Source: Paralimibaculum aggregatum (lineage in GTDB: Bacteria > Pseudomonadota > Alphaproteobacteria > Rhodobacterales > Rhodobacteraceae). From it: DNA of 55,932 nt. The translations under genes and the position numbers were made by a program. The stretch is from positions 1 to 55,932 of the forward strand of contig NZ_BSYI01000033.1 in NCBI RefSeq assembly GCF_030270585.1, written 5' to 3'. Of this stretch, positions 12,194 through 49,619 are shown in pieces (position 1 is the first letter of the stretch; each line of letters opens with the position of its first letter). Under the pieces are notes generated by a model, which was given only the letters and a program-made list of their open reading frames with translations, did no database searches and was not told where the DNA came from.

Positions 12194-12198
12194 CTTGC

Positions 12199-13068
12199 TC
12201 ACTCGAACCTGGTGATCCGCTCGCCGAACAGGCCGCGCGGGCGCAGCAGCAGGATCACGAGCATCATGAAGTAGATCGCGGCGGTGGAGAACGCGGAGAA
12301 GCCGAGCCCGACCATCGCGCCCTTGACCATGCCGACCAGAAGCGCGGCCAGCACCACGCCCCAGAACGAGCCGAGCCCGCCGATCACCACCACCACGAAG
12401 GCGGGCGTCAGGATCTCCGCCCCCATCGCCGGGTGGATGGTGTAGATCGGCGCCAGCAGCACGCCCGCGAGGCCGGCCAGCCCGATGCCGATGCCGGCCA
12501 CCGCCGCCATGTAGGGCCTGAGCGAGATGCCGAGCGCGCCGACCATGTCCGGGTCCTGCACGCCGGCGCGCACCACGCGGCCGAAGGAGGTGCGCTCGAG
12601 CAGGAACCACAGCCCCGCGACACAGAGCGTCGCCACCGCGATCAGGAAAACCCGGTAGCGCGAGTAGATGAAGTCTCCGAGGAACACCTGGCCGCGCAGA
12701 TAGTCCGGGATCGAGAAGGAAAGCGGCGCCGCGCCGTAGATCATCCGCAGGCCCTGCTCCGCCACCATGGCGAGGCCGAAGGTCAGGAGCAGCGAATAGA
12801 GCGGGTCGATCCGGTAGAACCGGGTGAAGAGCAGCCGCTCCACCGTGATCCCGAGCAGCGCCACGGCCGCCGGCGAGATCACCAGCGCGCCGCCGAAGCC
12901 CACATAGGGAGCGATCGTCAGCGTCAGATAGGCGCCGATGGCGTAGAACGCTCCGTGTGCCAGGTTGATGATGCCGCCGAGCGAGAAGATCAGCGACAGG
13001 CCGAGCGCGATCAGCAGGTAGTAGACCCCGTCCAGCAGGCCGTTGAGCAGTTGCATTGCGAAGAGCAT
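12199..13068 (-). CDS. livH: Branched-chain-amino-acid-type ABC transporter permease LivH
   Basis: Inner-membrane permease of 289 residues with about eight hydrophobic segments. LivH hallmarks are the N-terminal GLSLIFSLGGIINLAHGAFYAIGAY and the conserved GVLLAPIYTIHPAMG and FVVVVIGGLGSFWGVVLAALLVG stretches near the C-terminus. It would pair with the LivM domain of the downstream fusion protein. No strong Shine-Dalgarno sequence precedes either ATG (13068 or 13056), so the exact start is uncertain. A 197-nt GC-rich spacer separates it from the binding-protein gene. Confidence 0.92.
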   Translation of the reverse strand: MLFAMQLLNGLLDGVYYLLIALGLSLIFSLGGIINLAHGAFYAIGAYLTLTIAPYVGFGGALVISPAAVALLGITVERLLFTRFYRIDPLYSLLLTFGLAMVAEQGLRMIYGAAPLSFSIPDYLRGQVFLGDFIYSRYRVFLIAVATLCVAGLWFLLERTSFGRVVRAGVQDPDMVGALGISLRPYMAAVAGIGIGLAGLAGVLLAPIYTIHPAMGAEILTPAFVVVVIGGLGSFWGVVLAALLVGMVKGAMVGLGFSAFSTAAIYFMMLVILLLRPRGLFGERITRFE

Positions 13069-13265
13069 GTGGAGACCGATTCGATTGCGCTCGGGAGCGG
13101 CTTCGGTGAGAGCGGGGCCGGAGGCCCGGGCGAGCGGGAGCCGCGGGGCCGCCCCGGCCGCAGCCGGCGCCGCCTCGCGTCATCCCGCCCGCCCGGGACG
13201 CCCCGTCGTCCGGGGAGCCCGGAGACCCCGGCGCGGCGGGGTCGTCCGGACCGTCTCGGGCCGAC
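13069..13265. other. GC-rich intra-operon spacer with hairpin potential
   Basis: This spacer follows the binding-protein gene and precedes livH. It contains short strong stems, for example CCCCG/CGGGG at 13201-13215. Such structures after a binding-protein gene often stabilise its mRNA or partly terminate transcription, so that the binding protein outnumbers the permease. I see no gene in it. Confidence 0.3.
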
Positions 13266-14516
13266 TCAGCTCGGGAAGGTGCAGGTGTTCTCTTCTTCCG
13301 TCGCGGCGATCAGCTCGAGGCTCTCGCCGGTGCCGGGAACCGGATCGCTCGAGGTGAAGATGTCCCACTGGTTCTCGATCTGGTCGGGCGGCAGCGCGGT
13401 GATGCCGTACATCTCGTTCATGAACTGGTGGTCGCGCTTGCGGAAATAGCCCTCGCGGGTCTTCAGCACGTCGAAGCTCGCCTCGCTCTCGAAATGCTCG
13501 ACGATGGCGGCGCTGTCGGTGGTGCCGAGTTCCTCCATCGACTGGGCGATGATCTTGACCGCGTTGTAGTCGCCCCAGGCCTGGTTCTCGGGCGGCTTGC
13601 CATAGGCGTCGGTGAAGGCCTTGACGAAGGCGCGGGAGCCGTCGGTCTCGACCCGGTGGTGCCAGACCGAGGGCCAGGAGCCGACGAAGTTGCCCTTGCC
13701 CGCCGCCCAGGCCAGCGCCATGTCGAAGCCGAAGCCGCCGAGCGGATAGTCGAGCCCGAACTCGGCATACTGCTTGAAGAAGTTGGTGGTCTGCTGGCCG
13801 GCGAGGTTGAGGATCACCAGGTCCGGCTCGGCGGCGCGGATCTGCAGCATGTAGGCCGAGAAGTCGGTGGCGTCGGTGGGCACCAGCTCGTCGCCGGCGA
13901 AGGTGCCGCCATTGGCCGTCATGAAGCGCTTCGCCACCTTCAGGAGGTCGTGCCCGAAGGCATAGTCGGCGGTCATCGAGAACCAGCGCTTGCCCTCGAC
14001 CAGCCCCTCGCGGGTGTAGAACTGGCCGATCGACTTCACGTACATCGAGTTCTGCGCCTCGATGTGGAACATGAACTTCTTGCAGTCCGAACCGCGCAGC
14101 GCGTCCGAGTTGCAGCCGGTGTTGACGAAGAGCGTTCCGGTGCGCTGCGCCACCTGGCCGATGGTCAGGCCGGAGGACGACGAGATCTCGCCGACGATGC
14201 AGGCCACCCCGTCGCGCTCGATCATCCGCTCGGCCTTAGTGGACGCGGTCTGCGGATTGACCGAATCCTCCTGCAGGAGCTCGATCTCGCGGCCCATCAC
14301 GCCGCCGGCGGCGTTGATCTCGTCGACCGCGAGGCGAGAGGCCATCGCCGCGTATTCGCCGAGCGGGCCGAGAAAGCCGGTGCGCGGGGTCAGGTGGCCG
14401 AATCGGATCTTGTCCGACTGGGCGCGCAGAATCGCCGGGCTGGCAAGCGTGAGCGCGGCCGCGCCGGCGCCCGACTGGAGCAGGCGGCGGCGGGAAATGG
14501 GTCTGTATGCAGCCAT
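13266..14516 (-). CDS. Periplasmic substrate-binding protein of a Liv-type ABC transporter, Tat-exported
   Basis: Type I periplasmic binding protein of 416 residues. The N-terminus carries a twin-arginine signal (SRRRLLQSGAGAAALTLASP, then AILRAQ), so export of a folded protein is expected. Mature-domain signatures of the LivJ/AmiC-like family include TPRTGFLGPLGEYAAMA, AVDEINAAGGVMGREIELL, EDSVNPQTASTKAERMIERD and SMTADYAFGHDLL. AAGGAGG lies 6 nt before the ATG. It heads the operon SBP-livH-livMGF-dehydrogenase-BKACE and is divergent from a GntR regulator. The ligand is not predictable from sequence. Confidence 0.93.
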   Translation of the reverse strand: MAAYRPISRRRLLQSGAGAAALTLASPAILRAQSDKIRFGHLTPRTGFLGPLGEYAAMASRLAVDEINAAGGVMGREIELLQEDSVNPQTASTKAERMIERDGVACIVGEISSSSGLTIGQVAQRTGTLFVNTGCNSDALRGSDCKKFMFHIEAQNSMYVKSIGQFYTREGLVEGKRWFSMTADYAFGHDLLKVAKRFMTANGGTFAGDELVPTDATDFSAYMLQIRAAEPDLVILNLAGQQTTNFFKQYAEFGLDYPLGGFGFDMALAWAAGKGNFVGSWPSVWHHRVETDGSRAFVKAFTDAYGKPPENQAWGDYNAVKIIAQSMEELGTTDSAAIVEHFESEASFDVLKTREGYFRKRDHQFMNEMYGITALPPDQIENQWDIFTSSDPVPGTGESLELIAATEEENTCTFPS

Positions 14517-39393: not shown

Positions 39394-39924
39394 ATGAAGC
39401 TCGTAGCCACCCCTCGCGTCACGCTCGCCGGTCAGGCGGCCTGGCTCCTCCCCATCGCCGCCGGCGCGGCGGCGCTCGCCATCGCGGCGCAGATCCGGAT
39501 CCCGTTCTGGCCGGTGCCGATGACCATGCAGGTGCTGGCGGTGCTGCTGATCGGCTGGTTCGGCGGCATGCGCACCGCGCTCGGCAGCGGCGCGCTCTAT
39601 CTCGGCCTCGGCGCCGCCGGGCTGCCGTTCTTCGCCGGCGGCGCGCTGTTCGGGCCGACCGGCGGCTACCTCGTCGGCTTCGTGCTGGCGGCCGCTGCGC
39701 TCGGCGCCTGGCGGGAGCGCTGCGGGGTCCCCGGCCTCGCCGGCATCGCCGCGCTCAACCTCGCCGCGACCGGGCTGATCTATGCGCTCGGCTGGGGCTG
39801 GCTGGCGGCGATCACCGGCGATCCCGCGGCCGCCTTCGCCGCCGGGGTGGTGCCCTTCCTGCTCGGCGACGCGCTGAAGATCGCGGTGGCGAGTCTCGTG
39901 GTCGCGCGCTTCGCCCGGCGCTGA
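39394..39924 (+). CDS. bioY: Biotin transporter BioY
   Basis: Integral membrane protein of 176 residues with about six helices, the substrate-binding (S) component for biotin uptake. BioY signatures are the QIRIPFWPVPMTMQVLAVLL stretch, GMRTALGSGALYLGLGAAGL, PFFAGG and GPTGGYLVGFVLAAAALGAW. No ATPase or T-component gene adjoins it; solitary BioY proteins occur in alphaproteobacteria. The ATG at 39394 has AAAGG about 9 nt upstream. It is divergent from an operon encoding biotin-dependent carboxylase subunits, a functionally sensible coupling. Confidence 0.93.
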   Translation: MKLVATPRVTLAGQAAWLLPIAAGAAALAIAAQIRIPFWPVPMTMQVLAVLLIGWFGGMRTALGSGALYLGLGAAGLPFFAGGALFGPTGGYLVGFVLAAAALGAWRERCGVPGLAGIAALNLAATGLIYALGWGWLAAITGDPAAAFAAGVVPFLLGDALKIAVASLVVARFARR

Positions 39925-39929
39925 CATCC

Positions 39930-39968
39930 GGCGCTGGCAAAAGGCGCTGGCACAAGGCACTGGCACCC
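39930..39968. repeat. Three-unit 13-bp tandem repeat downstream of bioY
   Basis: GGCGCTGGCAAAA (39930-39942), GGCGCTGGCACAA (39943-39955) and GGCACTGGCACCC (39956-39968) follow one another without gaps. The array starts 6 nt after the bioY stop. It has no coding role that I can see. Confidence 0.75.
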
Positions 39969-39983
39969 GGTGCCGACCCCTGC

Positions 39984-40016
39984 CCGGGCGCGGTTCAGGC
40001 CGCGCCCGGAGCGCGT
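39984..40016 (+). terminator. Probable intrinsic terminator of bioY
   Basis: CCGGGCGCGG (39984-39993) pairs perfectly with CCGCGCCCGG (40000-40009) around the loop TTCAGG, followed by a short GCGCGTTT. It lies 60 nt after bioY and before the next plus-strand gene. The T-run is short, so efficiency is uncertain. Confidence 0.55.
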
Positions 40017-40095
40017 TTCCGGCCCGGCCCGCTTGCCCGGCCGGCACCGTCCCGGCATACCGGCAGGACCCATCCGCCTGCCCCGGGAGATGCCG

Positions 40096-40965
40096 ATGTC
40101 CGAGCCGAGCTATGCCTTCGCCGCCGATGGCCTGCCGCCGCAATCGCGGCTGATGACCGGGCGCGCCGTCTTCACCGAGGCCTATGCGGTGCTGCCGCGC
40201 GGCACCCAGACCGCCATCGTCACCTCGCGGCTGCCGGGCTGGCAGGGCACCCGGCTCTGGGTGCTGGCCCGCCCGCTCTCGGGCTTTGCCGAGACCTTCG
40301 CGCACTACCTCATGGAGGTCGCCCCCGGCGGCGGCAGCAGCGCGCCCGAGCCCGACCCGGCGGCGCAGGCGGCGCTCTTCGTCACCGCGGGGCGGCTGCG
40401 GCTCGATCTGGCGGGCGCGGCGCATCATCTCGGCGCCGGCGATTTCGCCTGGCTGCCGCCCGGCGCCGCCTGGCAGCTCGCGGCCGAGGGCGACACGCCG
40501 GCCCGCTTCCACTGGATCCGCAAGCGCTGGCAGCCCGCCGCAGGGCTCGCCCCGCCCGGGCCGGTCTTCGCCAGCGATGCCGGCACCCCGCCCGAGCCGA
40601 TGCCGGACTGCGGCGGGGTCTGGGCCACCACGCGCTTCACCGACCCCGAGGACCTGCGCCACGACATGGCGGTCACGGTGGTCACCTTCGCCCCCGGCGG
40701 CACCATCCCGTTCGAGGAGACGCATGTGATGGAGCACGGGCTCTACGTGCTCGAGGGCAAGGCGGTCTACAAGCTCAACCGCGACTGGGTGGAGGTCGAG
40801 GCGGGGGACTACATGTGGCTCCGCGCCTTCTGCCCGCAGGCCTGCTATGCCGGCGGGCCGGGGCCGTTCCGCTACCTGCTCTACAAGGACGTCAACCGCC
40901 ACATGCCGCTCGGCGGGCATCTCGGGCATCTCGGGCATCTCGGGCAGCCCGGGAGCGCCGGATGA
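40096..40965 (+). CDS. allE: (S)-ureidoglycine aminohydrolase
   Basis: Bicupin metalloenzyme of 289 residues that converts (S)-ureidoglycine, formed from allantoate, to (S)-ureidoglycolate and ammonia. The C-terminal cupin has the Mn-site pattern FEETHVMEHGLYVLEGKAVY (Glu, His, His) and a Gln in FCPQACYAGG. The N-terminal cupin has the softer GDFAWLPPGAAWQL. The GGGAG before ATGCCGATG favours the second ATG (40096). Its stop overlaps the next gene, ureidoglycolate lyase, as ATGA; the two catalyse consecutive steps. The C-terminus ends in an unusual HLGHLGHLG run encoded by a short tandem repeat, which may be a recent expansion. Confidence 0.92.
   Translation: MSEPSYAFAADGLPPQSRLMTGRAVFTEAYAVLPRGTQTAIVTSRLPGWQGTRLWVLARPLSGFAETFAHYLMEVAPGGGSSAPEPDPAAQAALFVTAGRLRLDLAGAAHHLGAGDFAWLPPGAAWQLAAEGDTPARFHWIRKRWQPAAGLAPPGPVFASDAGTPPEPMPDCGGVWATTRFTDPEDLRHDMAVTVVTFAPGGTIPFEETHVMEHGLYVLEGKAVYKLNRDWVEVEAGDYMWLRAFCPQACYAGGPGPFRYLLYKDVNRHMPLGGHLGHLGHLGQPGSAG
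40912..40947 (+). repeat. 9-bp in-frame tandem repeat at the 3-prime end of allE
   Basis: Units CTCGGGCAT (40921-40929), CTCGGGCAT (40930-40938) and CTCGGGCAG (40939-40947) follow a diverged unit at 40912-40920. They encode the HLG repeat in the last 15 residues of the aminohydrolase. Being in units of 9 nt, length changes would keep the frame. Confidence 0.8.
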
Positions 40966-41453
40966 GCCGCATGGTCGATGTCGAGCCGCTGGAGCCCGGC
41001 GCCTTCGCCCGCTTCGGCGACGTGATCGAGGCCGAGGGTCCGCCGGACAGGCTCATCAACGAGGGGCTCTGCGGCCGCTGGCACGACCGTGCCCGGCTCG
41101 ACTTCGCCGATGGCCGCGCCGGGATCAGCCTGTTCCGCTCCGAGCCGCGCACCCTGCCCTTCACCCTCGCGCTGCTCGAGCGCCACCCCCTCGGCAGCCA
41201 GAGCTTCCTGCCCATGGGCGGCACGCCCTGGCTCGCCATCGCGGCGCCCGACGAAGATGGCCGCCCGGGCCGGCCGCGGGCCTTCCGCGCCTCCGGCACG
41301 CAGGGGGTCTCCTATCTCCGCGGGGTCTGGCACGCGGTGCTGACGCCGCTCGGCGGGCCGGGGCTCTTCGCGGTGGTCGACCGGATCGGACCCGGCGCCA
41401 ATCTCGAGGAGCACCGCCTCGCCGAGGGCTGGCTCATTCGCGCGGCGCCGTGA
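40962..41453 (+). CDS. allA: Ureidoglycolate lyase
   Basis: Enzyme of 163 residues that splits (S)-ureidoglycolate into glyoxylate and urea. AllA features are DVEPLEPGAFARFGDVIE near the N-terminus, the central LERHPLGSQSFLPMGG and the C-terminal RGVWHAVLTPLGGPGLFAVV, with the conserved WH. The ATG overlaps the stop of the aminohydrolase gene (ATGA) and has GGGAG upstream. The last 20 nt overlap tail-to-tail with the convergent carbamoylase gene. No urease or allantoinase gene lies in the window. Confidence 0.93.
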   Translation: MSRMVDVEPLEPGAFARFGDVIEAEGPPDRLINEGLCGRWHDRARLDFADGRAGISLFRSEPRTLPFTLALLERHPLGSQSFLPMGGTPWLAIAAPDEDGRPGRPRAFRASGTQGVSYLRGVWHAVLTPLGGPGLFAVVDRIGPGANLEEHRLAEGWLIRAAP

Positions 41454-42345
41454 TCAGGGCATAGTCCTGCGGCTCGCGGTGCAGGGCGAAGTTGAACACG
41501 TTGGCCCGGATCTCGGCACAGCGGTCGAGGTCGATCCGGGCCGAGATCACCTCGTCGCCGGTGGTGCTGGCCTGGGCGACGATCTCGCCGGTGGGCGCGG
41601 CGATCAGCGAGCCGCCGATCAGGTCGCACCCCTCCTCGCGCCCGGCCTTGGCCACCGCCACCGCCCAGAGCCCGTTCTGGTAGGCCCCGGCCTGCACCGA
41701 GAGCGCGTTGTGGAAATACTGCAGGTGGTCGTGCTCCGGCGCCGGCGGATAGTGCAGCGGCGTGTTGTAGCCGAGGCAGACCAGCTCGGCGCCGCCGAGG
41801 CCGAGCATCCGCCAGGTCTCCGGCCAGCGCCGGTCGTTGCAGATGCACATGCCGATGCGCCCGCCGAAGGCGTCGAACACCGGGAAGCCGAGATCGCCCT
41901 TCTCGAAATAGCGCTTCTCGAGATGCTGGAAGGGCCGCCAGTCCTCGTGCTCGCGGTGCCCGGGCAGGTGGATCTTGCGGTATTTCCCGGCGATCCGGCC
42001 GGCCGCGTCGACGAGGATCGCGGTGTTGAAGTGCCGCCCTTCCGGCGTCAGCTCGGCATAGCCGAGATGGAAGCCGATCCCCAGCGTCTCCGCCGCCTCG
42101 AACAGCCGCCGGGTCTCGGCCGAGGGCATCTCGGTCTCGAACCAGCGGTCGATCTCGGCCGGCGCCTCGGTGTACCAGCGCGGGAAGAAGGTGGTGAGCG
42201 CAAGCTCGGGGAAGACCACGAGCCGCGCGCCGCGGGCCGCGGCCTCGCGCATCAGCTCGATCATCCGGGTGACGGCGGAGGCGCGGCTCTCCGCCGCGGC
42301 GATCGGGCCGAGCTGCGCCCCGGCGACGACAAAGGACCGGCTCAT
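41434..42345 (-). CDS. N-carbamoyl-D-amino-acid amidohydrolase (nitrilase superfamily)
   Basis: Cytoplasmic C-N hydrolase of 303 residues that removes an N-carbamoyl group, releasing CO2 and NH3. The triad is Glu47 (VFPELALTTFFPRW), Lys124 (KYRKIHLPGH) and Cys169 (CICNDRRWPETWRM). The wording around these residues and FQHLEKRYFEKGDLGFPV agree with what I recall of Agrobacterium D-carbamoylase. It overlaps the M20 carbamoylase gene by 4 nt and ends the operon dctQ-dctM-dctP-dpaL-M20-this gene. No hydantoinase is present, so its substrate probably enters already carbamoylated. Stereospecificity is an inference. Confidence 0.9.
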   Translation of the reverse strand: MSRSFVVAGAQLGPIAAAESRASAVTRMIELMREAAARGARLVVFPELALTTFFPRWYTEAPAEIDRWFETEMPSAETRRLFEAAETLGIGFHLGYAELTPEGRHFNTAILVDAAGRIAGKYRKIHLPGHREHEDWRPFQHLEKRYFEKGDLGFPVFDAFGGRIGMCICNDRRWPETWRMLGLGGAELVCLGYNTPLHYPPAPEHDHLQYFHNALSVQAGAYQNGLWAVAVAKAGREEGCDLIGGSLIAAPTGEIVAQASTTGDEVISARIDLDRCAEIRANVFNFALHREPQDYALITAPRE

Positions 42346-43589
42346 TCGGCAGCCTCCAGAAGCTCGAGCGCCACGTCGAGCAGCACCCCTGCGCCGGCCA
42401 CCAGGTCGTCCGCCCCGGTGTGCTCGGCGATGTTGTGGCTGATCCCCCCGGCGGAGGGAACGAAGATCATCGCGGTCGGGCAGTTCGGCGCGAACATCTG
42501 TGCGTCGTGCCCGGCGCCGGAGGGCATCCGCCGCGCCGGCAGTCCGCGCGCCGCGGCCGCGGCCTCGACCCGGGCGACCAGCGCCGCGTCGAACTCCACC
42601 GGGGCGAAGCGGGCCAGCCGCCGGCTCTCGAGCCGGCAGCCCTCCGCCGCGGCATGGGCCTCGGCCGCCGCCATCAGCCGCGCCTCGGCCGCCTTCAGCA
42701 CCGCATCGTCGGTGTTGCGCAGATCGACGGTCAGCTTGGCGCGCTCCGGCACCACGTTGACCAGCCCCGGCGAGAGCTCGGTGACGCCGACGGTGGCCAC
42801 CTGCGGCGGGCCGAGATCGTCGGCGATGGCGCGCGCCTCGAGCGCGATCCGCGCCGCCGCGCAGCCGGCATCGCGGCGCATCGCCATCGGCGTGGTGCCG
42901 GCATGGTTCGACTGCCCGTGCAGCGTGAACTCGGTCCAGCTGATGCCCTGCACCCCGGTCACCGCGCCGATCCTCAGCCCCTCGCGCTCCAGCACCGGGC
43001 CCTGCTCGACATGCAGCTCGAGGAAGGCCGCCGGCGTGAGGCTCCGCACCGGCACCGCGCCGCGATAGCCGATGCGGTCGAGCTCGGCCCCCAGCACCGC
43101 GCCGTCGATGCCGACCACCGCCAGCATCTCCTCGAGATCCAGCGCGCCTTGGTGCACGCCCGAGCCCATCATGTCGGGCGCGAAGCGGGCGCCCTCCTCG
43201 TTGGTGAAGGCGGCCACCGCCAGCGGCCGGCGGGTCACCCGCCCGGCATCGTCGAGCGCGGCGCAGACCTCGAGCCCGGCCAGCACGCCGAGCGCGCCGT
43301 CATAGAGCCCGCCGGTGGCGACGCTGTCGATATGCGAGCCGAGCATCACCGGCGGGCCGTCCTCGCGCCCCGCCCGGATGCCCCAGATGTTGCCGATGGC
43401 ATCGACCGAGACCGCAAGGCCCAGCTCCTCCATCCAGCGCACCAGCAGGTCGCGCCCCGCGCGGTCGGCATCGCCGAGCGCGAGGCGGCAGACGCCGCCG
43501 CCGGGCAGCGCGCCGACCGTGCCGAGCCGGCGGATGCGGCCCAGCAGCCGGGCGCCGTCGATCGCGGGGGTGCCGGCCGGGCCGCTCAT
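42342..43589 (-). CDS. M20-family N-carbamoyl-L-amino-acid hydrolase/allantoate amidohydrolase-like enzyme
   Basis: Dinuclear-metal amidohydrolase of 415 residues. Metal ligands are visible in LGSHIDSVATGGLYDGALGV (His, Asp), FTNEEGARF (Glu), LELHVEQGPVLE (His) and SAGGISHNIAEHT (His). The dimerisation lid contains HGQSNHAGTTPMAMRRDA. The family includes L-carbamoylases, beta-ureidopropionases and allantoate or ureidoglycolate amidohydrolases, which cannot be told apart here by eye. It overlaps dpaL (ATGA), so the products may feed the ammonia-lyase. Allantoate hydrolysis is an alternative role, given the ureidoglycine genes nearby. Confidence 0.9.
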   Translation of the reverse strand: MSGPAGTPAIDGARLLGRIRRLGTVGALPGGGVCRLALGDADRAGRDLLVRWMEELGLAVSVDAIGNIWGIRAGREDGPPVMLGSHIDSVATGGLYDGALGVLAGLEVCAALDDAGRVTRRPLAVAAFTNEEGARFAPDMMGSGVHQGALDLEEMLAVVGIDGAVLGAELDRIGYRGAVPVRSLTPAAFLELHVEQGPVLEREGLRIGAVTGVQGISWTEFTLHGQSNHAGTTPMAMRRDAGCAAARIALEARAIADDLGPPQVATVGVTELSPGLVNVVPERAKLTVDLRNTDDAVLKAAEARLMAAAEAHAAAEGCRLESRRLARFAPVEFDAALVARVEAAAAARGLPARRMPSGAGHDAQMFAPNCPTAMIFVPSAGGISHNIAEHTGADDLVAGAGVLLDVALELLEAAE

Positions 43590-44830
43590 GCCGCGCGCGC
43601 CCGGATGGTGGCGGCATCGGTGCCGACCAGCTCGGCATAGAGCGCCGGGTCGGTGTCGCCCTCGCTGCCGAAGACCAGCACCCGCGCGCCGGCATCGAGG
43701 CCGAGCGCCGCCCGCGCCCGCGGCTCGCCCATGGCCGCGGCGAGCCCGGCGAGCCCGGCCACCGCGCTCTCGCCGGCGACCAGCGGCCGGTCCGGCGCCG
43801 GCGGGCCGGCCAGCCGGCGCATCATCGCCACCGCCGCATCGTCGGGCAGCGCCATGGCGAAATCGCCGTGGTCCTTCAGGATCTCCCAGGCCAGCGCCGA
43901 GACCTCGCCGCAGGCCAGCCCGGCCATCAGCGTGTCGAGATCGCCCTCGATGGCGGTCGGCCGGCCGGCGCGGAAGCTCTCGACCCAGCAGGCGGAGCGG
44001 TCCGGGTCGGCCAGCACGATCAGCGGCCGCCCTGCGCCCCAGCGCCGCTTGGCCTGCGCCGCCACCGCCGCGGCCATGCCGCCGACGCCGGTCTGCAGGA
44101 AGATGTGGCTGGGCGGCTCGGCCAGCGCCTCGAAGGCCTCCCAGGCCATCAGCTCGTAGCCCTGCATCACGTCCTTCGGCACCTCCATGTAGCCCGGATA
44201 GGAGGTGTCGGAGACCACGAACCAGCCCTCGCGCGTCGCGGTCTCCTGCGCCTCGCGGACGCTGTCGTCGTAGTTGCCGGCGCAGCGGCGGACCTCGGCG
44301 CCATAGGCCGCGATGGCAGCCTTTCGGCCCTCGGAGACGGTGGCGTGGATGAAGATCACGCAGGCGCAGCCGAAATTCCGCGCGCCCCAGGCGACCGAGC
44401 GGCCGTGGTTGCCGTCGGTGGCGCAGCAGACGGTGATCCGCGCCGCCTCCGCCGCCAGCGCGCCCGAGAGGATCTCCTCCGCCGCGACATCGCGGCCGAG
44501 CGCCGCACCGATCTGCCGGCGCAGCAGGCGCAGCACGGCATAGGCGCCGCCGAGCGCCTTGAAGCTGTTGAGCCCGAAACGCAGGCTCTCGTCCTTGTAG
44601 TGCAGCGCGCCGACGCCGATCTCGGCGGCCAGCCCGGCCAGCGGCTCGAGCGGGGTCGGCGCATAGCCCGGCCAGGTGGTGATGGTGGCGCGCGCCTCGG
44701 CGAGCGCGGCATCGCTCAGGATCGCGTCCTGCGCCTCGGTCCAGGCGGCGCCGCGCCGGGCGCCGGCATTGGCGACAAGCGTGAACGGCCGCTCGGCGGC
44801 GGCATCGCGGTGGTCGATCGGATCGGTCAT
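43586..44830 (-). CDS. dpaL: Diaminopropionate ammonia-lyase
   Basis: PLP enzyme of 414 residues converting 2,3-diaminopropionate to pyruvate and two ammonia. The PLP Lys is in LNSFKALGGAYAV. Other landmarks are CCATDGNHGRSVAWGARNFG, ATVSEGRKAAIAAYGAEV, DTSYPGYMEVPKDVMQGY and the phosphate loop QTGVGGMAAAVAA. The wording is distinctive for YgeX/DpaL rather than threonine dehydratase. GAGG lies 5 nt before the ATG at 44830. It lies between the TRAP transporter genes and two carbamoyl hydrolase genes, implying that diaminopropionate is produced by decarbamoylation in the cell. Confidence 0.93.
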   Translation of the reverse strand: MTDPIDHRDAAAERPFTLVANAGARRGAAWTEAQDAILSDAALAEARATITTWPGYAPTPLEPLAGLAAEIGVGALHYKDESLRFGLNSFKALGGAYAVLRLLRRQIGAALGRDVAAEEILSGALAAEAARITVCCATDGNHGRSVAWGARNFGCACVIFIHATVSEGRKAAIAAYGAEVRRCAGNYDDSVREAQETATREGWFVVSDTSYPGYMEVPKDVMQGYELMAWEAFEALAEPPSHIFLQTGVGGMAAAVAAQAKRRWGAGRPLIVLADPDRSACWVESFRAGRPTAIEGDLDTLMAGLACGEVSALAWEILKDHGDFAMALPDDAAVAMMRRLAGPPAPDRPLVAGESAVAGLAGLAAAMGEPRARAALGLDAGARVLVFGSEGDTDPALYAELVGTDAATIRARAA

Positions 44831-44941
44831 GTCGGCCTCATGGAGGGACCGGAGCAGCACGCCCCGGCCCCGGTTCCGGTCAGTGGTCGTCGGTCTGGTC
44901 GGCCGGCGGCGCGGGGGCACGCACCGCCGGAACGGCCGGTC

Positions 44942-45979
44942 TCAGAAGGCGTTTTCCTCGTCGATCGAGGCCAGCAGCGCGTCGAGCATGGCGATGCCCT
45001 CGGCACCGTACTGCTCCTCGATCAGCGCCCGCACGGCGGGCTGGGCGGCCTCGGCGAACTTCGCCTGCTCCGCCGGCGGCACCACGTTGACCTCCATCTT
45101 GGCGGCCAGCGCCGGCAGGCCGCGCTCGGAGGCCTCGATCACGCGGGACATCGAGCGGCCGGCTTCGGTGGCGACCTCGGAGGCCCAGTTGACCAGTGTG
45201 CGGTGCTCCGGCGACAGGCCCTCGTAGAACTCCTTGTTCATCGTCCAGATATACGGCGTGATGATGTGGTTGGTGACGCTGAGGTATTTCTGCACCTCGT
45301 CGAACTTGGCGAAGGCGATGATCGGCACCGGGTTCATCTGGCCGTCGGCGACGCCGGTCTGCAGCGCGGTATAGACCTCGGCCCAGGGCAGCGGGGTCGG
45401 CTGGCCGCCGAGCGAGGAGATGATCGCCTCATGGGTCGGCAGGGTCATGGTGCGGATCTTCAGCCCCTCCATGTCGGCCACCGAGGTGATCGGCCGCTCG
45501 GAGTTGGTGAAGGCGAAGAAGCCGCCCGAATCGATCAGGCCGAGCACCTCGAGCCCGGTCGCGCCCTCGAGATCGGCGACGAACTTCTCCCCGAAGGCGC
45601 TCTCCTTGGAGATCACCCGGCTGGCCACGCCGATGTTGGGGAAGGCGAAGGGGATGTCGAAGACCCCGACCAGCGGGTAGTGCTGCGCCATGCCGCCGGA
45701 GGAGGAGATCGCGCTCTCGACCAGCCCGGCGCGGACCTGATCGATCACCTCGTTGTCCTTGCCGAGCTGCCCGTTGGGGAACAGCTGGACCTCGATCTCG
45801 CCGTTCGAGCTGGCCTCCACGAGGCTCTTGAACACCGCCGTCATGGCGCCGGAATGGCTCGCGAAGGGGTCCTCCGGGTTGAGATGGGCGATGCGGATCG
45901 TCACGTCCGCCGCCAGCGCCTGGGCCGAGAGACAGGCTGCCGCGAGCCCGATCCCGAGTGTCTTCATCGCCGTCTTCAT
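44942..45979 (-). CDS. dctP: TRAP transporter solute-binding protein, DctP family
   Basis: Periplasmic protein of 345 residues with a Sec signal peptide (about residues 1-24, GIGLAAACLSAQALA). DctP-family features are RIAHLNPEDPFASHSGAMTA, FPNGQLGKDNEVIDQVRAGL, MEGLKIRTMTLPTHEAIISS, LGGQPTPLPWAEVYTALQTG and VADGQMNPVPII. GGGAGA precedes the ATG at 45979. It delivers a carboxylate ligand to the DctQ/DctM pair encoded upstream. Co-transcription with dpaL and two carbamoylases suggests an N-carbamoylated amino acid as ligand; the conserved Arg in KIRTM would bind a carboxylate. Confidence 0.94.
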   Translation of the reverse strand: MKTAMKTLGIGLAAACLSAQALAADVTIRIAHLNPEDPFASHSGAMTAVFKSLVEASSNGEIEVQLFPNGQLGKDNEVIDQVRAGLVESAISSSGGMAQHYPLVGVFDIPFAFPNIGVASRVISKESAFGEKFVADLEGATGLEVLGLIDSGGFFAFTNSERPITSVADMEGLKIRTMTLPTHEAIISSLGGQPTPLPWAEVYTALQTGVADGQMNPVPIIAFAKFDEVQKYLSVTNHIITPYIWTMNKEFYEGLSPEHRTLVNWASEVATEAGRSMSRVIEASERGLPALAAKMEVNVVPPAEQAKFAEAAQPAVRALIEEQYGAEGIAMLDALLASIDEENAF

Positions 45980-46058
45980 CTGCAGTCTCCCTGTTTTTGG
46001 TGCGTGTGGTTTCGATTTGGTCCGGGCCCGGGGCCGGCCTGGCATCCGCTCCGCCATC

Positions 46059-47342
46059 TCAGAGCCCCAGCAGCCGCGGGACGAACAGCGTCAGATCGGC
46101 CCAGAAGGCGATCAGCAGCAGCACCGCCACCTCCGCCAGGATGAAGGGCCAGAGCTCGCGCGTGATCGCCTCGATGCGCTCGCCGGTCACCGAGGCCAGC
46201 ACGAAGAGGCAGGCCCCCACCGGCGGTGTCATCAGCGAGACGTTGAGCGCGAGGATGATCATGATGCCGGCATGCACCGGGTCCATGCCGAGCTTCACGG
46301 TGAGCGGCGCCAGCACCGGGGCGAGGATGATCAGCGTGGCGTTGATGTCCATCACCAGCCCGATCACCAGCAGCAGCAGCACGATCAGCCCGATCACCAC
46401 GTCCGGGTTCTCGGAGATCGTCAGCATCGCCTCGGCGATCGCCTGCGGCACCTGGCGGAAGGTCATCCACCAGCCGAGGATGGTGGCCGAGGCGATGATC
46501 AGGAAGATCACCCCGGTGATCCGGGTGGTGCGCACGCCGATCTCGTAGAGGTCGCGCCAGGTCAGCGCGCGATAGACCACGCCGCCCACCAGCAGCGCAT
46601 AGGCCACCGCGATCGCCGCCGCCTCGGTCGGCGTCGCGATGCCGCCGAGGATCGAGCCGAGGATGAAGACCGGCAGCAGCGCCGCCAGGAACCCCTCGCG
46701 CAGCGCCGCCAGCACGATGCGGAACGAGGGCCGCCCCTCGCCCTTCGGCAGCCCCTTGGACCGCGCCGTGAGCGCGATCATCGCCATGCAGACCGCGCAG
46801 ATCAGCAGCCCCGGCAGGATCCCCGCGGCGAACAGCCCGGCGATCGAGACCCCCATGATCGAGCCGTAGATGATCATCAGCGTCGAGGGCGGGATGGTCG
46901 GCCCGATGATGCTGCCCGCCGCCGTCACCGCGCAGGCATAGGGCCGCGAATAGCCCGCCTTCTGCATCGCCGGCACCAGCGTGTTGCCGAAGGCCGCGGC
47001 ATCCGCCGTGGCCGAGCCGGTGATGCCGGCGAACATCACGCTGGCCACCATGTTGGAATGCGCCATGCCGCCGCGCATCCAGCCGACCAGCGCATCGGCC
47101 AGCTTGACCAGCCCCGCGGTGATGCCGGAGCGGTTCATGATCTCGCCGGCCAGGATGAAGAACGGCATGGCGAGGAAGGGGAAGAGGTCGAGCCCGGCGA
47201 ACACCCGGTCCGGCGCCATGGTCATGAAGCGCGGGCCGAGATCGAGGATGCCGATCATCCCGGCGACGCCGATCGAGATGCCCACCGGCATGCCCAGCAC
47301 CAGCAGCCCGAAGAACGCCAGCGGAACCAGCCACTCTCCCAT
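46059..47342 (-). CDS. dctM: TRAP transporter large permease subunit DctM
   Basis: Inner-membrane protein of 427 residues with about twelve hydrophobic segments. Signatures include GLDLFPFLAMPFFILAGEIM, GGMAHSNMVASVMFAGITGS, GSIIGPTIPPSTLMIIYGSI, GIATPTEAAAIAVAYALLVG and a C-terminal SLMTPPVGACLFVLASVTG. The ATG overlaps the dctQ stop (TGATG); a GTG one codon earlier is an alternative. It completes the DctPQM importer and is separated from dctP by 79 nt. Confidence 0.94.
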   Translation of the reverse strand: MGEWLVPLAFFGLLVLGMPVGISIGVAGMIGILDLGPRFMTMAPDRVFAGLDLFPFLAMPFFILAGEIMNRSGITAGLVKLADALVGWMRGGMAHSNMVASVMFAGITGSATADAAAFGNTLVPAMQKAGYSRPYACAVTAAGSIIGPTIPPSTLMIIYGSIMGVSIAGLFAAGILPGLLICAVCMAMIALTARSKGLPKGEGRPSFRIVLAALREGFLAALLPVFILGSILGGIATPTEAAAIAVAYALLVGGVVYRALTWRDLYEIGVRTTRITGVIFLIIASATILGWWMTFRQVPQAIAEAMLTISENPDVVIGLIVLLLLVIGLVMDINATLIILAPVLAPLTVKLGMDPVHAGIMIILALNVSLMTPPVGACLFVLASVTGERIEAITRELWPFILAEVAVLLLIAFWADLTLFVPRLLGL

Positions 47343-47875
47343 CACTCGCCCCCCGGATCGATGGTGCGGCTGGCCAGCGCCTCCGGCGCGCGCTCGGCGA
47401 ACCAGTCATGCACCCCCATCAGCGCGAGCTGCAGGCAGGCGACGAAGGCCGCCAGCGGCACCCCGGCAAAGGCATAGCCCTTGGGGATCGCGTAGATCAT
47501 CGTCAGCCGCGAGAAGCCGCGCTCGGTGAAGCCGAGCCCGTACCAGAACAGCGCGGCGAAGAACACGAAGCCGATCACGTCGAAGCCCACCGCCAGCCAG
47601 CGCCGCACCGGCGCCGGCAGCCGCTCCAGCACGAAGCCGACCCCGATATGCTCGCGATGCGCGATGCCCGAGGAGACCGCCAGCAGCGCCATCCAGATCA
47701 TCAGGTAGCGCGCCAGCTCCTCGGTGAAGGTGATCGGCAGCGGGATCGCATAGCGCACCACCACGCCGAGCCAGACATCGATCACCAGCAGCGCCAGCAG
47801 CGCCACGCAGACCCGCTCAACCAGCCAGTTGACCCGCTTGCTCCAGCCGCGCGCGCGGTCTGCGATGTCGCTCAT
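47342..47875 (-). CDS. dctQ: TRAP transporter small permease subunit DctQ
   Basis: Inner-membrane protein of 177 residues with four hydrophobic segments. The DctQ motif region RYAIPLPITFTEELARYLMI and SSGIAHREHIGVGFVLERLP is clear. I start at the ATG at 47875 with GGAG upstream; the frame stays open further 5-prime but only through low-complexity and operator sequence. It heads the operon dctQ-dctM-dctP-dpaL-M20 hydrolase-carbamoylase and is divergent from the RpiR regulator. Confidence 0.92.
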   Translation of the reverse strand: MSDIADRARGWSKRVNWLVERVCVALLALLVIDVWLGVVVRYAIPLPITFTEELARYLMIWMALLAVSSGIAHREHIGVGFVLERLPAPVRRWLAVGFDVIGFVFFAALFWYGLGFTERGFSRLTMIYAIPKGYAFAGVPLAAFVACLQLALMGVHDWFAERAPEALASRTIDPGGE

Positions 47876-47965
47876 CCTCGCGTCTCCGTCTGCCGCCCGG
47901 ATGCCCCCGATGCCCCGCGCTGCCCCGCGCTGCCGTTTCGGCATCTCGGGGCTTGACCCGGTTGA

Positions 47966-47981
47966 TGAAAGCGGATTTTCA
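47966..47981. promoter_or_regulatory. RpiR-type operator candidate in the dctQ/rpiR gap
   Basis: TGAAAGCGGATTTTCA has inverted TGAAA and TTTCA arms around a 6-nt centre. A weaker related element (AAAAATAGGTTTTC) lies about 30 nt downstream. RpiR-family regulators are known to bind GAAA...TTTC-like dyads. The position between the divergent starts supports control of the DctPQM-carbamoylase operon. Confidence 0.55.
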
Positions 47982-48030
47982 TCTTGCCAGCAAGTACAAA
48001 AATAGGTTTTCGCATGCATACGGCGCGGCG

Positions 48031-48900
48031 ATGGTGAGGCGGGTGCGCGAGGCCGAGGCGGAGACGCCGACGGAGCGCATCCACCGGGTCTATGACGAGC
48101 TGCCCGAGGGCGAGCGCAAGGCCGCCGACCTGGTGCTCGACCGGCCCGGCGAGCTGGCGCTCTGGTCGGCCTCCGAACTGGCCGGCAAGGCCGGGATCTC
48201 GAACGCCACCGTCACCCGCTTCGTGCGGCGGCTCGGCTATCGCTCCTATGACGAGGCGCGGCGCTCGGCGCGGGCGATGCGGGCGCATGGCTCGCCGCTC
48301 TATCTCGCCGACGACCTGCCGCGCGCCGGCGCCGGGGCGCTCAGCCCCGAGCGGCTGATCGAGGCCGAGCGGCAGGTCGTCGAGGCCTCGCTGGAGATGC
48401 AGAACCCGCTCGCCCTCGGCGCCGTCGCCGAGACCCTGGCCGGCGCCCGGCAGCTGCGCATCGCCGGCTTCCGCAACAGCTTCTTCCTCGCCGAATACGC
48501 CTGCTCGACGCTCGGGCAGTTCCGCCCCGGCGTCGCGATGCTCAACATGCCGGGGCAGACGCTGGCCGAGGGCATCGCCGCGATGCGGCCGGAGGACGCG
48601 GTGCTGGTGATCGGCCTGCGGCGCCGGCCGGCGGGCTTTGCCGAGGTGATGCGGGCGATCTCCGGCACCGGCGCCCGGATCGTGCTGCTCGCCGATCTCA
48701 GCATCCGCACCGCGCCGGCGCTGGCCGACCATGCGCTGAGCTGCACCGTGGGCACGCCGCAGGCGCTCGATTCGCCGGCCGGCGCGCTGGCGGTGCTGCG
48801 GCTGCTGGCGCTCCTCACCATGCAGCGGCTCGACGGCGCCAGCCGCCGCCAGATGGAGCAGGTGGAGAGCCTTCTCGGCACCCTCGGCGAGCTGGAATAG
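48031..48900 (+). CDS. RpiR-family transcriptional regulator (HTH plus SIS domain)
   Basis: Regulator of 289 residues. The N-terminal HTH_6 domain (about 10-85) reads YDELPEGERKAADLVLDRPG, LWSASELAGKAGISNATVTR and FVRRLGYRSYDEARRSAR. The C-terminal SIS domain begins near residue 145 (RQLRIAGFRNSFFLAEYACS) and has MRPEDAVLVIGLRRRPAGFA. RpiR proteins sense phosphosugars or other small ligands. The start at 48031 keeps the upstream dyad free as an operator; an ATG at 47965 would begin at its edge. It is divergent from dctQ and convergent with the Liv ATPase gene, 17 nt away. Confidence 0.92.
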   Translation: MVRRVREAEAETPTERIHRVYDELPEGERKAADLVLDRPGELALWSASELAGKAGISNATVTRFVRRLGYRSYDEARRSARAMRAHGSPLYLADDLPRAGAGALSPERLIEAERQVVEASLEMQNPLALGAVAETLAGARQLRIAGFRNSFFLAEYACSTLGQFRPGVAMLNMPGQTLAEGIAAMRPEDAVLVIGLRRRPAGFAEVMRAISGTGARIVLLADLSIRTAPALADHALSCTVGTPQALDSPAGALAVLRLLALLTMQRLDGASRRQMEQVESLLGTLGELE

Positions 48901-48917
48901 CCCGCCGCGGCGCGCCG

Positions 48918-49619
48918 TCAGAGCGCCAGATACTGCTCCCGCACCTCGGGCCGCGCCGCCAGCTCGGCCATCGCGCCGTCGAACTGGATGCGCCCGCTCT
49001 CGATGATGCAGGCCCGGTCCGAGACCCGCTCGGCGAAGCGCACGTTCTGCTCCGAGAGCAGCACCGCGAGCCCCTGCGCCTTCAGCGCCTCGATGGTATG
49101 GGCCATCTGCTCGACGATCACCGGCGCCACGCCCTCCGAGGGCTCGTCGAGCAGCACGGTCTTCGGCGCGCCCATCAGGGTGCGCGCGATGGTCAGCATC
49201 TGCTGCTCGCCGCCGGAGAGGTGGCCGCCGAGATTCTCCCGCCGCTCGGCGAGGTTGGGAAACAGCGTGAAGAGCTCGTCGAGCTCCCAGACCCGGGCGC
49301 CCTCGAGCGGCTCGCGCCGGCCGACCTCGAGGTTCTCCATCACCGTGAGCTGCTTGAAGATGCGCCGCTCCTCGGGGACATAGCCGATGCCGAGCCGGGC
49401 GATCGCGAAGGCGGCGAGCCCGCGGATCGGCCGGCCCTCGTAGAGGATCTCGCCGCGCCGCGCCTCGGCCAGCCCCATCACCGACTTCATCGTGGTGGTC
49501 TTGCCGGCGCCGTTGCGCCCGAGCAGCGCCACCACCTCGCCGGGGCGGACCTCGAGCGAGACGTCGTGCAGGATATGCGCGGCGCCGTAGAAGGTGTGGA
49601 TCCCGCGAAGCTCAAGCAT
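48918..49619 (-). CDS. livF: Branched-chain-amino-acid-type ABC transporter ATPase LivF
   Basis: Cytoplasmic ATPase of 233 residues. Walker A is GRNGAGKTTT, the signature LSGGEQQMLTIARTLMG and Walker B VLLDEPSEGVAP. LSEQNVRFAERVSDRACIIE is typical of LivF. The start lies inside the last codons of livG (8-nt overlap), with GAGGAG upstream. It forms the ATPase pair with LivG for the fused LivH-LivM permease. It is the last gene of the Rieske-Liv operon. Confidence 0.94.
   Translation of the reverse strand: MLELRGIHTFYGAAHILHDVSLEVRPGEVVALLGRNGAGKTTTMKSVMGLAEARRGEILYEGRPIRGLAAFAIARLGIGYVPEERRIFKQLTVMENLEVGRREPLEGARVWELDELFTLFPNLAERRENLGGHLSGGEQQMLTIARTLMGAPKTVLLDEPSEGVAPVIVEQMAHTIEALKAQGLAVLLSEQNVRFAERVSDRACIIESGRIQFDGAMAELAARPEVREQYLAL

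Follow-up and report, generated by a model that had tools for sequence, protein, structure and literature searches.

A TRAP-fed operon of Paralimibaculum aggregatum predicted to degrade a ureido form of 2,3-diaminopropionate to pyruvate

Introduction

It was not until 2025 that the bacterial reductive urate pathway was completed. In the portions of the two published studies drawn on here, HyuA makes 2,3-diureidopropionate, which loses one ureido group to YgeW or UacY, and YgeY together with YgeX, a diaminopropionate ammonia-lyase (DpaL), converts albizziin to pyruvate (PMC12507026); an R, i.e., D, configuration is proposed for the pathway intermediate, and the order and stereochemistry of the ureido cleavages are described as unsettled (PMC12990295). 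Here, we analyze an operon of Paralimibaculum aggregatum in which DpaL is accompanied by two N-carbamoyl hydrolases, one of the nitrilase superfamily and one of the M20 family, and by a tripartite ATP-independent periplasmic (TRAP) transporter. The window, meaning the whole stretch of DNA that was analyzed, comprises 55,932 nt of contig NZ_BSYI01000033.1 in a genome of 5.5 Mb that is 98.7% complete.

Like the E. coli pathway (HyuA, YgeW, YgeY, and YgeX), the operon would remove ureido groups from diaminopropionate and end with DpaL, and its sister operons in other genomes share HydA and YgeY with that pathway. Unlike E. coli, it carries a D-carbamoylase and the M20 enzyme in place of the YgeW carbamoyltransferase, so that the predicted route would be hydrolytic and yield no carbamoyl phosphate, and it has its own importer and RpiR regulator in a genome that lacks a full-length YgfK. 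The C. difficile enzyme UacY, a D-aminoacylase homolog, resembles the predicted activity in its irreversible hydrolysis of a D-configured 2-ureido group but is of the amidohydrolase type, whereas the enzyme here has a nitrilase fold. Our leading interpretation, on which we are evenly balanced, is that the operon encodes an importer-fed, hydrolytic lower half of the reductive urate pathway in which the D-carbamoylase stands in for YgeW/UacY and the substrate would most likely be (R)-2,3-diureidopropionate.

Results

Gene calls and family models at 41434–48900 bore out the gene set given in a preliminary description of this DNA, namely DctQMP, DpaL, an M20 hydrolase, a nitrilase, and an RpiR regulator (Table 1). 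On the minus strand, the genes run from 47875 to 41434 in the order DctQ-DctM-DctP-DpaL-M20-nitrilase. Because three junctions (DctQ/DctM, DpaL/M20, and M20/nitrilase) overlap by 4 bp and the remaining spacers are short (79 bp between DctM and DctP, about 96 bp between DctP and DpaL), these genes very likely form one operon; a scan of 39900–48950 for promoters and terminators returned none of either. The transporter set is complete by family models, with DctQ, DctM, and DctP all present, and since the importer is of the TRAP type, the substrate is probably an organic anion. The same description had reported no hydantoinase, and there is none among the genes called from 39.3 to 49 kb; the genome does have one, on contig C4.

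The 11 best PDB sequences for the nitrilase were all N-carbamoyl-D-amino-acid amidohydrolases (D-carbamoylases; 376–438 bits), with the best other family at 100 bits. Residues E47, K127, C172, N173, R175, R176, and H144 (1FO6 numbering) were found in all 67 rows of the operon nitrilase alignment, from which a length filter had removed one short row. For some of six of these residues (E47, K127, C172, N173, R176, and H144), the roles are those that we take them to have in D-carbamoylases. For the others, roles are described in the part of PMC11503299 consulted. The operon nitrilases depart from 1FO6 at N202 (Tyr in 59/67) and T212 (Gln in 63/67), changes that suggest an altered pocket. The protein, previously called an N-carbamoyl hydrolase, is thus a hydrolase of this kind, but both PDB matches and residues place it specifically in the D-carbamoylase family, and it is predicted to act on the 2-ureido group of D-acids. 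A D-configured 2-ureido compound therefore fits better than L-albizziine. Albizziine, offered earlier as a substrate, was rejected as the imported compound in its plant-type L form, which has a free 2-amino group and would leave the D-carbamoylase without a role.

A clue to function came from the sister operons (DISCRIMINATING), in which enzymes of the reductive urate pathway join related gene sets. Pseudodonghicola (L115) has the order DpaL-M20-D-carbamoylase-D-hydantoinase-YgeY, the same TRAP operon is followed by YgeY in Antarcticimicrobium (L111), and plasmids of Cupriavidus necator N-1 and C. oxalaticus carry RpiR-DpaL-M20-D-carbamoylase-MFS-YgeY, where MFS denotes a major facilitator superfamily transporter. 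All four YgeY-family proteins pass the NF009555 cut-off of 321 bits (L115, 332.7; L111, 346.5; L239, 381; L240, 382) and all fail TIGR03526 (208–223 vs. 321.5 bits). A D-hydantoinase occurs in three loci, over the TIGR02033 cut-off in L115 and by annotation in L159 and L215. The latter two are Rhizobium plasmid clusters that closely resemble each other, with the dihydropyrimidinase/D-hydantoinase placed behind the ATP-binding cassette (ABC) importer. The joining of D-carbamoylase with HydA, YgeY, and DpaL matches what would be expected of a hydrolytic replacement for YgeW/UacY on the D-2-ureido group. A Rhodovastum atsumiense plasmid (L241, 6691–12216) carries DpaL-YgeY-"D-aminoacylase"-MFS transporter; with this UacY-like annotation beside DpaL and YgeY, and likewise with an importer, it shows what would be another importer-fed version of the lower half of the pathway. 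In L215 (Rhizobium ACO-34A, 9980–14076), molybdenum-hydroxylase-like genes ("aldehyde dehydrogenase" and a 2Fe-2S protein) directly adjoin the D-carbamoylase operon and run in the opposite orientation. Among the genes called in the window operon itself, there is no YgeY. YgfK gave 17 partial matches in the window genome and none over the cut-off, the best scoring 232 vs. 835 bits and covering positions 439–844 of 1012; because no full-length YgfK was seen, production of the substrate from urate is unlikely here.

The association extends well beyond this genome. We surveyed the neighbors of the best 80 of 328 DpaL relatives in named genomes, some of these loci being cut by contig ends. A D-carbamoylase stood beside DpaL in 60 of the 80, the M20 gene was between or adjacent in 36, and this TRAP transporter was present in 39; a Pot-type (PotDABC) ABC importer was found in nine, all of which carry M20. 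The layout with a private importer and RpiR, which the earlier description contrasted with that of E. coli, is a widespread module and not confined to this genome. At the order level, we searched 292 genomes for close relatives (at least 70% identity for the nitrilase, 60% for DpaL, and 64% for M20). Close nitrilases occurred in 11 genomes and close DpaL in 12, with both in nine (Fisher p 3e-13 over the 292 genomes, not corrected for kinship). In those nine, nitrilase and DpaL are neighbors or parted only by M20, and all seven genomes with a close M20 fall within them. The association reaches other Alphaproteobacteria as well as Beta- and Gammaproteobacteria, and the pairing appears on several separate branches of the nitrilase tree. 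A split arrangement was seen in one Rhodospirillaceae genome (L139 and L205), in which DpaL-M20 is followed by a DUF1028-like gene and the D-carbamoylase lies about 9 kb off. Searches of open-licence PMC papers turned up none that connects DpaL with a D-carbamoylase.

Among PDB chains, DpaL came closest to the pair of solved DAPAL structures (241 and 228 bits), followed by 46 bits for the best remaining chain. Residues K96, D144, and D213, which we take to be the pyridoxal phosphate lysine and two active-site aspartates, are kept in all 82 rows, including 5YGR. The protein falls below the cut-off of the narrower equivalog TIGR03528 (324 vs. 532 bits). Five loci with a distant DpaL (about 50% identical; L053, L054, L059, L160, and L163) carry an M20 aminoacylase and/or an Xaa-Pro-peptidase-like gene, some also with an Asp/Glu racemase, and L163 adjoins ectoine-transport genes; this looks like a separate, ectoine-like diaminopropionate pathway. 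In L113 (8086–9624), an 8-oxoguanine deaminase/SsnA-like amidohydrolase, under every curated cut-off shown, lies directly upstream of a partnerless DpaL.

Residues E131, Q196, R291, and H385 of the M20 enzyme are present in 36 of 36 rows (one short row dropped) and correspond to ligand residues reported, in the part of the source drawn on, for the solved structure of R. radiobacter beta-ureidopropionase (PMC10952681). Its PDB ranking places beta-ureidopropionase (295 bits) and L-carbamoylase (294) above the allantoate amidohydrolase AllC (1Z2L, 203), and it is far under the AllC equivalog cut-off (TIGR03176, 272 vs. 598 bits). Of two looser "allantoate amidohydrolase" models, it passes NF006771 (420 vs. 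399 bits) and misses NF006769 by half a bit (451.5 vs. 452).

The candidate RpiR operator, a TGAAA-N6-TTTCA palindrome (Table 1), was found exactly in 22 of 44 regions beside RpiR genes, where shuffles give an expectation of 0.02; random placement in the same loci expects 0.68 matches, though such placement can strike a true site. Outside the six regions in which the motif was spotted, 18 of 38 had an exact match, and two allantoin-type RpiR regions among the 44 had none. There are two exact sites in the window genome, both beside RpiR genes, and none for a reversed control pattern. The second site (contig C48, ~37904; L237, L238) lies between a peptide-type ABC operon and an RpiR gene whose product is 34% identical to that of the window, and this gene is followed by one resembling an enolase-superfamily enzyme. 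Because the second site borders a peptide-type ABC operon, the motif is RpiR-family-like and not private to this pathway.

Two genes overlooked in the preliminary description, AllE and AllA, are convergent with the operon; the stop end of AllA and the 3' end of the nitrilase share 20 bp. Around DpaL in the 80 loci, neither gene had a match, and both are probably not part of the operon. In two congeners, AllE-AllA sit at another locus with their own RpiR, 46–47% identical to that of the window, so their position here is probably incidental. No AllB model match over the cut-off was obtained for an allantoinase in the window genome, only a 34% match to a PuuE-like protein of a congener. Contig C35 carries a pyrimidine cluster, and contig C4 (L149) carries a separate D-hydantoinase/D-carbamoylase cluster whose D-carbamoylase is 58% identical to that of the operon. 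For PuuE, NCS1 permease, hydantoin racemase, PreA/PreT, and BioY, the names are presumed from the look of the sequences.

Table 1. Coordinates and family evidence for the operon, its regulator, and adjoining features
Feature	Position	Strand	Evidence and remarks
AllE, (S)-ureidoglycine aminohydrolase	40090..40965	+	NF008373, 468.6 vs. 445 bits
AllA, ureidoglycolate lyase	40962..41453	+	PF04115, 183 vs. 23 bits; best NCBIfam equivalog not reached, 240 vs. 260
Nitrilase-superfamily N-carbamoyl-D-amino-acid amidohydrolase (D-carbamoylase)	41434..42345	-	CN_hydrolase cut-off passed; 438 bits to 1FO6
M20 hydantoinase/carbamoylase-family N-carbamoyl amidohydrolase	42342..43589	-	TIGR01879, 401 vs. 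204 bits
DpaL, diaminopropionate ammonia-lyase	43586..~44845	-	Start approximate, alternative ATG 44830; NF006058, 486 vs. 276 bits
DctP, TRAP solute-binding protein	44942..45979	-	Curated family cut-off passed
DctM, TRAP large permease	46059..47345	-	TIGR00786, 405 vs. 268 bits
DctQ, TRAP small permease	47342..47875	-	PF04290, 87.5 vs. 28.3 bits
Candidate RpiR operator, TGAAA-N6-TTTCA palindrome	47966..47981		In 155-bp divergent intergenic region 47876–48030; binding predicted
RpiR/MurR-family regulator	48031..48900	+	HTH_6, 42.4 vs. 28.3 bits; divergent; likely start ATG 48031 from sequence

Discussion

The gene set, the protein families, the catalytic residues, the conservation of gene linkage, and the presence of HydA and YgeY in related operons are all read from sequence; from them we infer the reactions, the substrate with its stereochemistry, and the direction in which RpiR acts. 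The operon would be under RpiR control, and its TRAP transporter would import a ureido derivative of 2,3-diaminopropionate in the D configuration. The likeliest such compound is (R)-2,3-diureidopropionate, the open-chain intermediate formed when bacteria break down urate reductively. Hydrolysis of the 2-ureido group to CO2 and NH3 would fall to the D-carbamoylase, and that of the other (3-ureido) carbamoyl group to the M20 enzyme. From the resulting diaminopropionate, D or L, DpaL would eliminate both amino groups, releasing pyruvate and two NH3. Where a sister operon has a D-hydantoinase and a Pot-type ABC importer, degradation would begin a step before this, with cyclic 5-(ureidomethyl)hydantoin. 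We consider it rather probable that pyruvate is the product of degrading some ureido form of diaminopropionate. This core of the earlier proposal, two carbamoylases and DpaL leading from a ureido-diaminopropionate to pyruvate, is supported because HyuA, YgeY, and YgeX act on 2,3-diureidopropionate in the published pathway, and it gained from the D-hydantoinase and YgeY of the sister operons; its "double" decarbamoylation did not hold up as an obligatory step.

Several observations weigh against the importer-fed urate reading, and those on M20 are also the ones that removed the obligatory double step. M20 is found in 23 of the 39 TRAP-type operons and is absent from 16, and on the DpaL tree at least four changes are forced for the M20-less TRAP type, so the gene was repeatedly gained or lost. 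In four loci it coexists with YgeY, and there both would be rivals for the 3-ureido step; M20 may therefore act on the L-enantiomer there instead, and in general it may take either the 3-ureido group or the L-enantiomer. All 14 M20-less genomes searched have another M20 relative (best match 39–43% identical), which adjoins a dihydropyrimidinase in all three neighborhoods read and is for that reason probably the beta-ureidopropionase of the pyrimidine pathway; this enzyme could stand in as the 3-ureido hydrolase where M20 has been lost. The nitrilase evidence is likewise mixed: the same E-K-C triad and substrate-binding residues occur in all 21 comparison D-carbamoylases and hence point to the family and not to the substrate, and two order-level genomes have a close nitrilase without a close DpaL, beside peptide-type ABC genes. 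In a class-level survey of 20 nitrilase loci taken from 56 genomes with a match, DpaL was next to the nitrilase in only six and a D-hydantoinase took its place in four, so the nitrilase family is not tied to DpaL in general. DpaL in turn had none of these partners within 9 kb in 16 of the 80 loci (one contig-cut), and a Pfam scan gave unrelated functions for the neighbors of 10 such DpaL-only loci. A fold search with the DctP model recovered only the fold common to TRAP binding proteins; its top rows contained several different ligands and singled out none. Finally, of the two published studies, one has YgeW acting on the 3-ureido group (PMC12990295).

The variable presence of M20, and its coexistence with YgeY, would be accounted for if the substrate carried a single ureido group at C2 and the hydrolases split enantiomers: the D-carbamoylase would take the D-form, M20 the L-form, and DpaL both, with YgeY serving the 3-ureido group and M20 the L-2-ureido group where they meet. 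The consulted parts of two sources agree with this, one reporting L-specificity for this M20 family (PMC10952681) and the other equal activity of E. coli YgeX on the L and D isomers of diaminopropionate (PMC12507026). The substrate would be N2-carbamoyl-diaminopropionate from racemizing 5-aminomethylhydantoin or from C3-trimmed diureidopropionate; however, no natural source of it was found, and both YgeY and a racemase are missing from the window operon. We consider this account unlikely. Still less probable, we think, is a general scavenging of hydantoin-derived N-carbamoyl amino acids, such as N-carbamoyl-D-serine, in which DpaL would be a broad beta-eliminating deaminase and diaminopropionate no real intermediate. 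D-carbamoylases are indeed described as broad in substrate (PMC11503299, in part), and 14 of the 20 class-level nitrilase loci lack DpaL. Hydantoin clusters also share the D-carbamoylase family and Pot-type ABC importers with the operons described here; however, the D-carbamoylase of the window is coupled to DpaL, contig C4 already supplies the genome with a separate hydantoin cluster, this nitrilase clade specifically retains DpaL, and YgeY, with its known role in albizziin hydrolysis, joins in.

The adjoining AllE and AllA could suggest a ureide route, in which the TRAP transporter imports allantoate, M20 acts as allantoate amidohydrolase feeding AllE and AllA to give glyoxylate and urea, and the branch through DpaL either stands apart or processes the homologous compound diureidopropionate. 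Allantoin/allantoate catabolism (AllC, AllE, AllA) has the M20 superfamily and ureido chemistry in common with the operon, the looser subfamily models lean in that direction, and the genome has neither an AllB match over the cut-off nor a close PuuE-like allantoinase. In contrast, the equivalog and PDB scores separate M20 from AllC, and the AllE-AllA neighborhood is not conserved. We regard this route as very improbable, and as the principal explanation it was rejected, AllE-AllA being absent from the 80 loci and located elsewhere in two congeners. Because no allantoinase passed in the window genome, M20 might, with low probability, double as an allantoate amidohydrolase.

Returning to the importer-fed lower half of the reductive urate pathway, the operon family would provide soluble enzymes for the same ureido cleavage step, apparently tolerant of oxygen and with a D-preference that can be predicted, and it would assign a function to the common annotation trio of DpaL, "N-carbamoyl-D-amino-acid hydrolase," and "Zn-dependent hydrolase." More tentatively, and with the balance somewhat against it, we suggest that D-ureido intermediates leaked by anaerobic urate reducers are scavenged by aerobic bacteria of marine and soil habitats through a portable module, which would combine a private importer with a third way of cleaving the 2-ureido group, of the nitrilase type. 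If this is true, the D-carbamoylase independently supports the R configuration and 2-ureido hydrolysis, points described as open for the gut pathway. This would also imply cross-feeding on urate breakdown products and a new trophic link, in which diureidopropionate or ureidomethylhydantoin would be used by bacteria that do not reduce urate themselves.

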